DNA from: a virus
Strand: one strand, 5' to 3'
DNA length: 35,528 nt
Virus record (IMG/VR): IMGVR_UViG_3300006920_000112
Location: 1 to 35,528 of that record
Under the pieces are notes generated by a model. The model ran no database searches and had not been told where the DNA came from. It saw only the letters and a program-made list of their open reading frames with translations. Shown one piece after another: positions 3,354 to 33,407 of this stretch; the stretch's first letter is position 1; each line of letters begins with the position of its first letter. Made by a program: the position numbers and the translations under genes.

Positions 3354-5838
3354 CGATCCATCTAACCTATCTGCTAAAGAGGTTTATTATCCGAATGCGG
3401 GTGATAACCTTTTAGACTTTTTAGCTGATAATTTTACTGCTAACTTTGGCGGGCTGCACACTGATATCTACATCAATAAAGAACTGCTACTTTCAACAGC
3501 AGACATAAGCGACAGCGAAAAGCTTAACGATATTGCCGACCGTGTTATTCTTGAAAATGACAGTATTGCCGTTATCACTAGACCAGCAGATCCAGTTACA
3601 GCGCTTTATGTAATTGTTGCAGCATTAGCAATTGCTGCGGTGGTTTTGCTTGCGCCAAAAGTGCCGGGGCAAGCTGAAGGACAAGGTAGCTCACCAAACA
3701 ATCAACTAAATGCAGCAACTAATGAATTTAGGCCGAATCAAGGCATACCCGAAGTGTTTGGTTCGCCCGCATCATATCCTGATTTTGTTCAGCCAAGCTT
3801 TTATCTTTACGAGAACAACCTGAAAATACAGCGTGAATTGTTATGTGTTGGCATGGGCAGATATGACATAACAAAAGTATTAACAAGCGACACCGATATT
3901 AATAGCATTCCAAACTCAAGCTGGACTAAATACGAAACTGGCGACTGGGACGGTCAGCTACCTATACCACCAGTTATTATTCCAGACTGGGAGCAGCGCA
4001 TAACGGTACGCGAAACAAACGAAATTACTAGCCAATCACTTGAGGCTAAAAATACTAAGTCGTTTGAATTTGACGGAACAAATATTGATGTTGCCAATAT
4101 AGGAGCTGATTGCCAGCTAACATATAATGACGGCATTGATTTTATTACCGATATGGAGCTTGTTGTTGGTGATTATCTAACGGTAAATTTAGCAAAAGTT
4201 GTCGGACCAAGTACAGTGATAGCTTTGGTTGGCACATTCCAAGTTGGTGCTATCAATGAAATAGCAAAGACAATACTTTTACTTAGCGCTGTCTCACCAA
4301 ATCCTGACACAGGATGCCAAGGCACTGCAACCGCAACTGATTCAAGTGGCGAGGTTCAAAATTGGATTGGCTGGTATGGCGTTAGCGGCAATAAAAACGA
4401 ACAAGTTTGGTTTCATGTAATTATGCCAAGCGGCATAAGGGCAGAGGATAGCGGCAACATTACTGTTGATTTTGAGATGCAGATTAGAGAAGTTGATGTT
4501 GATGGGCTGCCGATTATCGGTACTGACCAGACATTAGCAGCATCAATATCAGGTGGAACACTAGATCCACAATTCAGGACTTATAAGTTTGAGGGTTTGC
4601 CACAAGGTCGATATCAAGGAAGATTGCGCAGAACAAGTGACGAGATTGGCGGTGCGACTGTTGAGAAAATTGTTGTTGAGCAAATTGTTGGCGTTGAATA
4701 TCAAGACGTGCCGAATTACGGTGATGTGACACTGCTATGGGTTGAGCGTAAGGCAAGTGATCGCGTTGTTGGAGGTAATCAGTCAAAGATTAATGTTGAG
4801 CTGACCAGAAAGTTACCGCACTACAATCGCTCAACTGGATTAATTGAATACAGCAACTTGGTTGCAACTCGTGACTTTGCTGATGCTGCTATGTATACGC
4901 TAGTTATAGCAGGTAAGCGCGACATTAACAGCGTAGACTTAGAGGAGCTTTATCGAATTAATGATGCGCTACCTGAGGCGTTAAGAACGTTTGACTTTAC
5001 ATTTGATGACGCTGATGTTGGCCTTCGAGAGAGGGTTTCGGTTATCTGTAACGCCGCTAGAGTGTTGGCATTTAAAGACTATCAAAGCTGGACGTTTAAC
5101 CGCATTGAAGCAAAGGCTTCACATTCAATGCTATTTAACCGACGTAACACTATTGGTGATTCTAATCAATCGTTCCCACAGTGGCTGCCAAGTGATAAAG
5201 ATTCTGTTTCGATATCTTATGTCACGCAACCAGATAACGTTGAGAAAACAGTGTATAGGCGCATTGTGAATGGCAACATACTTAGCGATGAAGCAGGTAA
5301 TTACCCTCTTGAAATAAACTTAGTTGGATGTCAAAGTGATGATCAAGCCGAAAATCGTGCGGACTATGAAATAAGAAGCCTGCTATATCAGCGTGATAGC
5401 GTTGAATTTCAGACCTATTATTTTGGTTTATCAGCTCGAATAGGTGATAAGGTTAGATGGTGCGATATGAATGACTATGATGTTTTCGGCGGTGAAATAC
5501 TTGATATTTTTGGCAGTGATTATCTAACAAGTGAGCGCATTAACTTTGAGCCGGGCAAAACTTATTACGTTCAAACAACTAGGGATGATGGGTCGATTGG
5601 CGCGCTAGCCACTTGTTCAGCTTTAAGTTATACTGACAAGGGCTTTAGGTCATCTACTTTGGCTGGTGCTTACACTGCAAATGACGGTAATTATGAGTTT
5701 GGATCTAAATATGTAATAGCTCCAGATGATGAGCTAAAAGGCACTGACTATACATTAAAATCAGTGACTAACAGTGGGGATGGAATAGCTACCATTACAC
5801 TTTCTGAATATAACGATAAAATTTTTGAGGCTGACTAA
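3331..5838 (+). CDS. TipJ-like tail tip / host specificity protein (gpI-gpJ type fusion)
   Basis: 835 residues. The N-terminal 80 residues look like the small ubiquitin-like gpI fold, followed by a hydrophobic segment (about 90-112, ALYVIVAALAIAAVVLLAPK). The body then starts with the J-type sequence RPNQGIPEVFGSPASYPDF, and a cysteine-containing block (ELLCVGMGRYDI) follows. This is the central tip hub that contacts the host receptor. It is shorter than lambda gpJ (over 1100 residues) and lacks an obvious fibronectin-rich C-terminal tail, which fits with receptor binding being passed to the separate tailspike next door. Start ATG lies inside the peptidase gene. Confidence 0.85.
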   Translation: MPVLVRFNDPSNLSAKEVYYPNAGDNLLDFLADNFTANFGGLHTDIYINKELLLSTADISDSEKLNDIADRVILENDSIAVITRPADPVTALYVIVAALAIAAVVLLAPKVPGQAEGQGSSPNNQLNAATNEFRPNQGIPEVFGSPASYPDFVQPSFYLYENNLKIQRELLCVGMGRYDITKVLTSDTDINSIPNSSWTKYETGDWDGQLPIPPVIIPDWEQRITVRETNEITSQSLEAKNTKSFEFDGTNIDVANIGADCQLTYNDGIDFITDMELVVGDYLTVNLAKVVGPSTVIALVGTFQVGAINEIAKTILLLSAVSPNPDTGCQGTATATDSSGEVQNWIGWYGVSGNKNEQVWFHVIMPSGIRAEDSGNITVDFEMQIREVDVDGLPIIGTDQTLAASISGGTLDPQFRTYKFEGLPQGRYQGRLRRTSDEIGGATVEKIVVEQIVGVEYQDVPNYGDVTLLWVERKASDRVVGGNQSKINVELTRKLPHYNRSTGLIEYSNLVATRDFADAAMYTLVIAGKRDINSVDLEELYRINDALPEALRTFDFTFDDADVGLRERVSVICNAARVLAFKDYQSWTFNRIEAKASHSMLFNRRNTIGDSNQSFPQWLPSDKDSVSISYVTQPDNVEKTVYRRIVNGNILSDEAGNYPLEINLVGCQSDDQAENRADYEIRSLLYQRDSVEFQTYYFGLSARIGDKVRWCDMNDYDVFGGEILDIFGSDYLTSERINFEPGKTYYVQTTRDDGSIGALATCSALSYTDKGFRSSTLAGAYTANDGNYEFGSKYVIAPDDELKGTDYTLKSVTNSGDGIATITLSEYNDKIFEAD

Positions 5839-8591: not shown

Positions 8592-9293
8592 ATGTTTAAG
8601 TATCTAGTTTTTTTAATGTTGTCGATTATGTCTGTCACTGCTCAAGCAACTGAGCAGTGCGAGCTACCCAAGCAAGTGTCATTGTCATTTGATGATGACC
8701 TTGCTATTGATGGTTTTTACGACAGTTTATATCTGTTTGAAAAGTATGGTGTAAAAGCTACTTTGTATGTTTCAAAGTGGCCTAACCTTACTAACCTACA
8801 GAAGCAGAAGCTCTTAGCTATTCAGGCAGCAGGCCATGAGGTTGGTAATCATGGTTTGTGGCACAGAAATGCTACTGACTTCGCGCCAACAGAGCATAAG
8901 GCAACTGATGTTGATCCAGCTATCCCTTATGCTCGTGGGATTGGCTTAGGCATTCATACTTTTGCTTACCCTTATGGCGCTAGAACTCCATTGCATGATG
9001 CTGAGTTGTTGAAGTCTTATGTTGCTGTTCGCGGGTTCACTACAAATTATAGCGTTGCATTGCCATCTGGTAAGCCATCAATAACAGCTTATAGTATTGA
9101 TTCTGGTCACTACAATTTTAACAAAGTAGCCACTGCAATTGATAATCTACAACCGGGCGAAACAGTTTATTTTGCTGGCCATGTCATTGGCCCTTGGGCT
9201 AATGAATGGCATATAACCACATCAGACTTGGAGGCTGTATTAAATTACGGTCAAAGTAATAACGTTAAATTTTGCACTGTTAAGGATTGTTAA
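8592..9293 (+). CDS. Secreted polysaccharide deacetylase (NodB homology domain)
   Basis: 233 residues. Residues 1-19 are a signal peptide (MFKYLVFLMLSIMSVTAQA, AxA cleavage). The NodB motifs follow in order: SFDDD (32-36, Asp34 likely base, Asp35 metal ligand), HGLWH (His87 and His91, the HxxxH metal ligands), FAYPYG (124-129) and a final FAGH (His197). All metal-binding residues of carbohydrate esterase family 4 are present, so an active N- or O-deacetylase is likely; the substrate is unknown. It lies two bases after the tailspike and overlaps the next gene by a TAATG. The leader predicts export to the periplasm, which is odd for a virion part. It may instead alter the host envelope or polysaccharide during infection or lysogeny. 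Confidence 0.88.
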   Translation: MFKYLVFLMLSIMSVTAQATEQCELPKQVSLSFDDDLAIDGFYDSLYLFEKYGVKATLYVSKWPNLTNLQKQKLLAIQAAGHEVGNHGLWHRNATDFAPTEHKATDVDPAIPYARGIGLGIHTFAYPYGARTPLHDAELLKSYVAVRGFTTNYSVALPSGKPSITAYSIDSGHYNFNKVATAIDNLQPGETVYFAGHVIGPWANEWHITTSDLEAVLNYGQSNNVKFCTVKDC

Positions 9294-32805: not shown

Positions 32806-32974
32806 TCACCAGTGCAATGAGTTAAAGCCGATAGAAAGTGCGAATAAGGCGCTTATACTTGCTGAGTTGGTTAGCGTGCATACTCAATATGTCGAGTGCC
32901 AACAAACAGTAGAAGCTTGGTTAATTTGGTATGACACTGTTTTTGAGTCGTTTAGTGTTGACAGCAAAAAGTGA
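32696..32974 (+). CDS. Rz1-like outer-membrane spanin (lipoprotein), nested
   Basis: 92 residues, beginning inside the Rz-like gene (shifted frame) and extending about 170 bases past its stop. The lipoprotein signal is LIAMLLMTSGCAS (lipobox TSGC, Cys18), and PPKPSNH gives the proline-containing stretch typical of Rz1. The C-terminal helical part (LILAELVSVHTQYVECQQTV) is longer than lambda Rz1. Nested Rz/Rz1 architecture is diagnostic. Its last codons contain the -35 of the orphan RNA promoter. Confidence 0.85.
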   Translation: MLRNTAILIAMLLMTSGCASTINQLDAQRQLPPKPSNHQCNELKPIESANKALILAELVSVHTQYVECQQTVEAWLIWYDTVFESFSVDSKK

Positions 32975-32986
32975 TTGTTATATTGT
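32958..32986 (+). promoter_or_regulatory. Promoter of the orphan non-coding RNA
   Basis: TTGACA (32958-32963), exactly 17 bases, TATTGT (32981-32986), predicted start near 32993. The -35 lies in the end of the Rz1-like gene. A close match to sigma70 consensus, pointing into 390 bases with no protein gene. Confidence 0.75.
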
Positions 32987-32992
32987 TTGTTG

Positions 32993-33383
32993 TGAAATCT
33001 GTAGTAATAGTTTGGTCATCCTAGATATCTTGTAAATATCTTGCCGTGAACAAATAATAAGTGAGACAACACTACGAAAACCGACTCACTCACGTTACGA
33101 GTGGATATTTCATTCGATAATAAGGATGGTGATAATATCTGCCAGCTACGAGGCTATGACTAGCAAGCTGATTTAACGCTGCGAAGCGTGAATGATGCAA
33201 ACCAAATTCAATTACCTCCATCCCCGCGCAACATGGGCAGAGGCGAAAAGGTCATCTATAATAGCAAAAATCTCCTGCTTAGACCCTGACGAAATGTTGC
33301 AGACAAAGGTGTTGATTTAGACCTTCATAACGATTAACCATCGTGTCGATTCGGTAACAAGTGCCCTCATGTGAGGGTTTTTT
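32993..33383 (+). ncRNA. Putative ~390-nt structured non-coding RNA
   Basis: A consensus promoter and an intrinsic terminator bracket a segment without a credible gene. Hairpins seen: ACGCT-GCGA-AGCGT (33176-33189, a GNRA tetraloop), nested CCTC/GAGG (33215-33218 with 33240-33243) and CCC/GGG (33222-33224 with 33235-33237), AAGGT/ACCTT (33306-33310 with 33321-33325) and ACGAT/ATCGT (33330-33334 with 33340-33344). Loop bases GCAACAT (33228-33234) are exactly complementary to ATGTTGC (33294-33300), a possible pseudoknot. Two ATATCTTG repeats lie at 33026 and 33037. No tmRNA, RNase P or tRNA hallmarks were seen. Could be a decoy, antisense or structural RNA; unknown. Confidence 0.6.
33364..33383 (+). 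terminator. Terminator of the orphan RNA
   Basis: CCCTC (33364-33368) and GAGGG (33373-33377) with loop ATGT, followed by six T (33378-33383). Confidence 0.88.
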
Positions 33384-33407
33384 ATTGCCTGAATTTTAGA
33401 TATTAAA

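Follow-up and report, generated by a model that had tools for sequence, protein, structure and literature searches.

A conserved pseudoknot RNA of phage tRNA operons with complementarity to the 3' end of 16S rRNA

The nearest known kind to the RNA described here is represented by GOLLD and ROOL, phage RNAs found near tRNA islands. GOLLD, which was reported to bind ribosomes in pull-downs, resembles our unit in being a structured RNA of phages and prophages that lies by tRNA islands, has a conserved 3' part and a variable 5' part, and sometimes has tRNAs inside it (PMC12286853); unlike our conserved core of about 95 nt, many of its members exceed 800 nt, and it forms 14-mer nanocages. ROOL, likewise an orphan phage RNA of large size, also lies by tRNA islands (PMC12286853), but its model has 574 positions. 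A precedent for the location of our RNA is the orphan noncoding RNA of phage ICP1, which adjoins the lysis cluster and is the most abundant ICP1 transcript (PMC7567579), although it is about 800 nt long, ICP1 has no tRNAs, and the two are likened by description and not by sequence. Finally, the folded pseudoknot mRNA of rpsO docks on the 30S platform by pairing of its Shine-Dalgarno (SD) sequence with the anti-SD, and S15 traps the docked mRNA (PMC3858243). The rpsO leader resembles our core in joining an SD, which in the core is an SD-like segment, to a pseudoknot; it differs in acting in cis on a gene of its own, for which it has a start codon, and Rfam gave no match between this leader and the core.

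The DNA analysed was a 35,528-nt stretch (hereafter the window; IMG/VR record IMGVR_UViG_3300006920_000112) of a phage whose host we infer from its relatives. An earlier note, made from the letters of the window, had proposed an orphan structured RNA of about 390 nt, transcribed from its own promoter, after the lysis genes.

Borders and content of the transcription unit

The orphan unit is flanked by the Rz/Rz1 spanin genes, which belong to PHROG lysis families, and by a leftward operon headed by a MazG-like gene. A sigma-70-type promoter (TTGACA-17-TATTGT; 32958 to 32986, plus strand), the -35 box of which lies inside the end of Rz1, matches the consensus at 10 of 12 positions and is kept in three relatives (L013, L022 and L111), while promoter-like matches in the region as a whole numbered 12 against 13.6 in shuffles, i.e. 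no excess. An intrinsic terminator (CCCTCATGTGAGGGTTTTTT; 33363 to 33384, plus strand, comprising 33363-33378 with a T tract) is kept in L013, L028 and L111, and back to back with it stands a leftward terminator at 33427-33408. All three signals had been named in the earlier note and were borne out. Promoter and terminator together predict a transcript of about 391 nt (32993 to 33384, plus strand). The DNA between them is free of protein genes, as had been claimed: ORFs in the unit do not exceed 43 aa, they gave no PHROG match, and the 3' part differs between relatives by 1-nt indels, on which grounds a protein-coding reading was dropped.

The folding energy of the whole 391 nt was no better than that of dinucleotide shuffles (z = -0.01), and that of the core alone gave z = -1.1 against shuffles. 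The sequence by itself would thus not make the case for a structured RNA, which is carried instead by homologues and covariation, and the proposed structure holds for a core of about 95 nt and not for the 391 nt as a whole. The view that the RNA belongs to none of the known families was upheld, since no Rfam family (tmRNA, RNase P, 6S, group I intron and others) matched at the gathering score; a weak match to AaHKsRNA82 was rejected, as it was on the opposite strand, at the terminators, and far under the gathering score. In the comparison with large phage RNAs that the earlier note had suggested, the GOLLD model (RF02032) matched none of 11 records at E ≤ 10, with the controls below the cut-off too, so that a very remote relation is possible, and GOLLD gave nothing at E ≤ 3 in the Rfam scan; with the ROOL model (RF03087) none of the 11 records scored at E ≤ 10, though neither did the controls respond, and the Rfam scans gave no ROOL match. 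Elsewhere in the window (8592-9293), an ORF 3' of the presumed tail spike gene has a translation that looks like a putative secreted polysaccharide deacetylase.

Homologues and covariation of the core

A sensitive blastn search of phage records detected unannotated intergenic matches (about 84%) in Shewanella phages 3/49 (40 kb), 1/4 and 1/40 (134-139 kb), each in a differing gene neighbourhood, and alignment of the window with these copies pointed to an H-type pseudoknot with compensatory changes. A second blastn search added Shewanella phage ZP9 (L102). Blastn, viral-contig pattern scans and one protein-anchored scan gathered in all 19 distinct members, which are related to one another and occur in at least five phage lineages (the window, L002, L003, L005, L008, L010, L013, L019, L022, L044, L058, L060, L075, L096, L102, L104, L105, L108 and L111), a conservation in keeping with the earlier proposal. 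Three viral-contig pattern scans required neither complementarity of the pseudoknot stems nor the P4 hairpin described below, and matches were retained only if the pseudoknot pairs were present; the percentages of pseudoknot pairing are therefore partly selected. Many pattern matches, L012, L045, L053, L071 and L072 among them, were discarded for having no pseudoknot pairing or not the rest of the core. For matches from these three scans the P4 hairpin is a selection-independent check, but it is none for L104, L105 and L108, because the pattern that found them included P4. The full pseudoknot was present in 13 of 66 distinct pattern matches, and 10 of these 13 have 6-7 of the 7 P4 pairs, the fixed P4 columns being shifted by indels in the other three (L005, L044 and L075); the remaining 53 matches mostly have 1-4 of the 7. 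A covariance model (R1) scored members outside its training set at 43.8-80 bits, against noise of at most 17.8 bits, with E-values that are rough.

A core of about 95 nt (33104 to 33198, plus strand) is the conserved heart of the unit; in it a hairpin with the SD-like segment is followed by an H-type pseudoknot and then by a hairpin with a GNRA cap. The first of these, P1 (33104 to 33139), is predicted by folding: GATATT (33104-33109) would pair with AATATC (33134-33139) and enclose the SD-like segment, and stems like it, judged by eye, surround that segment in other copies. Covariation supports the remaining helices. Pseudoknot stem S1 (33141 to 33154; GCC 33141-33143 with GGC 33152-33154) is 100% paired, with GC/CG switches in 7-8 sequences that exchange GCC/GGC for CGC/GCG. 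Stem S2 (33145 to 33164; GCTA 33145-33148 with TAGC 33161-33164) is also 100% paired, has five pair types at one position, and occurs as GCUA/UAGC, GCAU/AUGC, GCUC/GGGC, GCUC/GAGC, GCGU/ACGC and a shortened GCC/GGC. Hairpin P4 (33167 to 33198; 33167-33169 with 33196-33198, 33173-33174 with 33191-33192, and 33176-33180 with 33185-33189) varies widely in sequence, and a GNRA-type loop is kept in most copies. All of these features are on the plus strand.

In the alignment of 19 sequences, which was fitted to S2 and P4 and not to S1, standard pairs occupied 96.9% of the cells over 17 pairs (78.0±1.5 when shuffled), and 54 cells had changed on both sides (17.6±2.9 when shuffled). The covariation score was 0.491, against 0.165±0.020 for shuffled alignments and at most 0.081 when partners were slid by 1-3 columns; a gapless subset of the alignment was scored as well. 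The covariation check proposed in the earlier note thus came out strongly for the core, and its GNRA-capped hairpin (33173-33192, loop GCGA at 33181-33184) was among the best-supported features. Its pseudoknot fared less simply: one is present, formed by GCC/GGC crossed with GCTA/TAGC, but it is not clearly the version with a 7-nt loop complementary to a later strand, which failed in that the sole loop with an exact 7-nt complement is GATATTT and AAATATC (33034) lies upstream.

Protein comparison, in which phage 1/4 was represented by part of its genome, sorts several carriers into groups that have few structural genes, or none, in common with one another (window/L075/L108; 3/49/L044/L010/L060; 1/4; ZP9; L008; L096), which argues for horizontal spread of the core among otherwise unrelated marine phages. 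Plasmids gave no core match. One strict pattern run over 84,980 species genomes gave a single match, in coding sequence of a Flavobacteriales MAG, which we took as chance; this pattern would miss several core subtypes, and absence from host genomes is not implied. A literature search returned no description of the core in Shewanella phages, although one may have been published. We consider it nearly certain that the core is a new conserved structured phage RNA.

Complementarity to the 3' end of 16S rRNA

Directly 5' of the pseudoknot, every copy of the core carries a purine-rich segment. The window's SD-like segment, TAAGGATGGTGAT (33121 to 33133, plus strand), would pair with the 3' end of 16S rRNA over 12 base pairs interrupted by one bulge (-15.7 kcal/mol; p = 0.001 within the contig and 0.003 against shuffles). 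The purine-rich segments include UAAGGAuGGUGAU in the window and five other copies, UUAAGGAGGUGAU in L022 and L102, AAGGAGGUGAUC in L096 and L108, GGGAGGUGAU in L058 and L060, and AAGGGGGUAAU in L008; others exist. E. coli rrsH (L103) supplied the 16S tail, GGAUCACCUCCUUA. Duplex energies with this tail ranged from -12.4 to -21.9 kcal/mol in 18 of 18 loci measured, so that the pairing ranks within roughly the best 1% of all 22-nt windows of each contig. When compared with dinucleotide shuffles, 11 of 12 distinct segments gave p < 0.02, and the L008 segment was borderline (p = 0.052). Combination over the segments gave p-values of 6e-27 and 2e-17, which are optimistic and overstate the significance, because segments from related members were counted as independent. 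The SD-like segment itself was part of none of the selection patterns. This complementarity, absent from the earlier note, is the most informative functional clue.

No reading frame 3' of the SD-like segment is common among the members, and a start codon at usable spacing is found only in L104 and L111 (AUG) and in L102 (UUG). As in rpsO-like docking RNAs, a pseudoknot of the core adjoins a segment strongly complementary to the 16S 3' end, and because the SD-like segment, the spacing of about 10 nt, the pseudoknot and the lack of a start codon in most copies resemble 30S-docking mRNAs, a trans-acting docking RNA is favoured. The core RNA would be expressed in infected cells by its own promoter; in copies with a tRNA close behind, an RNase P cut at the tRNA 5' end would make its 3' end. 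It would then bind the host 30S by pairing with the anti-SD of 16S rRNA; such docking through the SD has about an even chance of being correct. Given that the pseudoknot starts about 10 nt after the SD and that a start codon is missing from most copies, the RNA would remain on the 30S platform in the manner of an rpsO mRNA that is not accommodated. The docked RNA might compete with mRNA or tether ribosomes, and so favour phage over host translation. A decoy role, already raised in the earlier note, is plausible but unproven, and decoy or tether function in trans is the more tentative part of the scheme, with somewhat less than an even chance. The best explanation overall, to which we assign a probability of roughly 0.45, is a folded, non-accommodated RNA from phage tRNA/noncoding RNA operons that docks on the 30S as a decoy or tether. 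Against docking, the purine-rich composition of the SD-like segments would also suit some other ligand; these segments are partly base-paired in predicted folds, and the 16S pairing is bulged in some copies.

The tRNA-operon context and alternative roles

The core recurs as the invariant component of small operons in which tRNAs or tRNA-like elements abound, with tRNAs for Gly/Arg (L003), Gly/Trp (L019), Arg/Ser (L022), Ser/Arg (L044), Gly (L102), Ser/Thr (L104) and Pro (L111). Closeness to phage tRNA genes, a GOLLD-like trait, is thus seen in several members, but ARAGORN called no tRNA or tmRNA in the window. When loci were fetched through the Rz protein, the core was in the same place in six of six (four distinct arrays), and the tRNA cassette differed or was missing among them. 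Compared with L022 and L111, the window keeps module A, core, module C and terminator and is without Domain I, Domain II and tRNAs; its copy is best read as the constant part of a modular tRNA/noncoding RNA operon, without the two upstream domains and the tRNAs of its relatives. Module A (33060 to 33103, plus strand) is a GTGAG...CTCAC stem followed by the hairpin CACTC-ACGTTAC-GAGTG (33087-33103); it is near-identical in L013, L022 and L111, and by reading it is changed in L096, L104 and L108 with pairing kept. Module C (33213 to 33360, plus strand) is a conserved noncoding 3' part about 90% identical in L013, L028 and L111, with 1-nt indels. An automated search of the basal stems of Domains I and II gave mixed per-locus significance, and these stems are described but not relied on.

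Several further elements were observed in these arrays. Module A (GTGAG...YACGAAAACC(C)GACTCAC plus a paired hairpin) looks like a second conserved RNA element, found also at about 607-650 in L013 and 5' of the cores in L022, L111, L096 and L108. Module C lies between tRNA cassette and terminator in L013 (1200-1350), L028 (10490-10650) and L111 (5000-5150). An element TTCCGCAGCACCTT..CGCGCATAGAGATATGCGC, a hairpin with a GAGA loop, occurs 3' of the core in L005, L010, L060, L102 (about 4227-4263) and L108. Shewanella phage 1/4 (L003 5096-5245) has a pseudo-tRNA inside a long inverted repeat, AATATTATTTTTATGCTAAC, and ZP9 has a similar enclosed element 5' of its tRNA-Gly (L102 4054-4148), as well as an annotated int-alpA RNA (L102 3362-3431) about 550 nt 5' of the core and in the same direction. 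Sequences like a tRNA T-arm, GGTTCGAGTCC and GGGTTCGAATCCC, are present in L013 (944-1032) and in the domain 5' of the L105 core, where ARAGORN called no tRNA; these upstream domains appear to be tRNA-like domains fused to the RNA.

The strongest rival to 30S docking is a cis role in maturation of the tRNA operon, in which the core would be a stable folded spacer that guards the precursor and sets up processing, the long double-stranded Domain I serving RNase III and a cut by RNase P falling directly 3' of P4; the core would not act in trans. Closeness to tRNAs suits this role equally: tRNA or tRNA-like elements are present in many core operons, and the first tRNA starts 8-12 nt 3' of P4 in L022/L112, L044, L104 and L111. 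However, the core is kept without an intact tRNA nearby in the window, 3/49, L008, L058, L075 and L096, the 3/49 core is equipped with a promoter and a terminator of its own, and this role would leave the kept 16S complementarity unexplained, so that we consider a purely cis role unlikely.

Less probable still is that the core is a decoy for a protein or toxin, be it a CsrA/RsmA sponge, a ribosomal-protein mimic or a mimic of a type III antitoxin that neutralises an abortive-infection toxin. The hairpin of many copies does contain an AAGGA/GGA-like sequence, and type III antitoxins also use a compact H-type pseudoknot such as that of the core. Yet those antitoxins are usually tandem repeats and the core is single-copy, none of the antitoxin and ribosomal leader families of Rfam matched, and a CsrA decoy is disfavoured because the required GGA is missing in four copies (L002, L008, L013 and L105).

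The SD and the few start codons noted above, with the AUG in L104 and L111 (MPATRL, then a stop), would accommodate a translated leader, in which ribosomes load at the strong SD, translate a mini-ORF and remodel the pseudoknot to control the downstream RNA; this is very improbable, given that most copies have no AUG, GUG or UUG at usable spacing, that frames are not conserved, and that a tRNA or terminator, not a gene, follows. A DNA-level element, such as a recombination site shuffling tRNA cassettes, or a non-functional relic would fit the shuffling of modules and tRNAs around the core between relatives, but is hardly credible in view of the compensatory changes in two crossing stems and a GNRA hairpin and of a core that runs in the direction of the promoter and neighbouring genes wherever checked.

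The core adds a compact RNA family with pair-level covariation to the few RNAs known from phage tRNA islands. To the question of what such RNAs do, the core brings a concrete hypothesis, pairing with 16S rRNA; because it is present in isolated Shewanella phages (1/4, 1/40, 3/49 and ZP9), RNA-seq, 30S-binding and deletion tests are feasible. In its most general form, which we regard as a doubtful conjecture, a horizontally spread class of phage RNAs would occupy the host anti-SD through a folded, SD-bearing pseudoknot that in most cases has no start codon, so that phages would take over translation initiation by means of an RNA launched from their tRNA operons. If docking of the core on the ribosome is true, it would represent an RNA route to the takeover of host translation and would give a handle on why such RNAs adjoin phage tRNAs.
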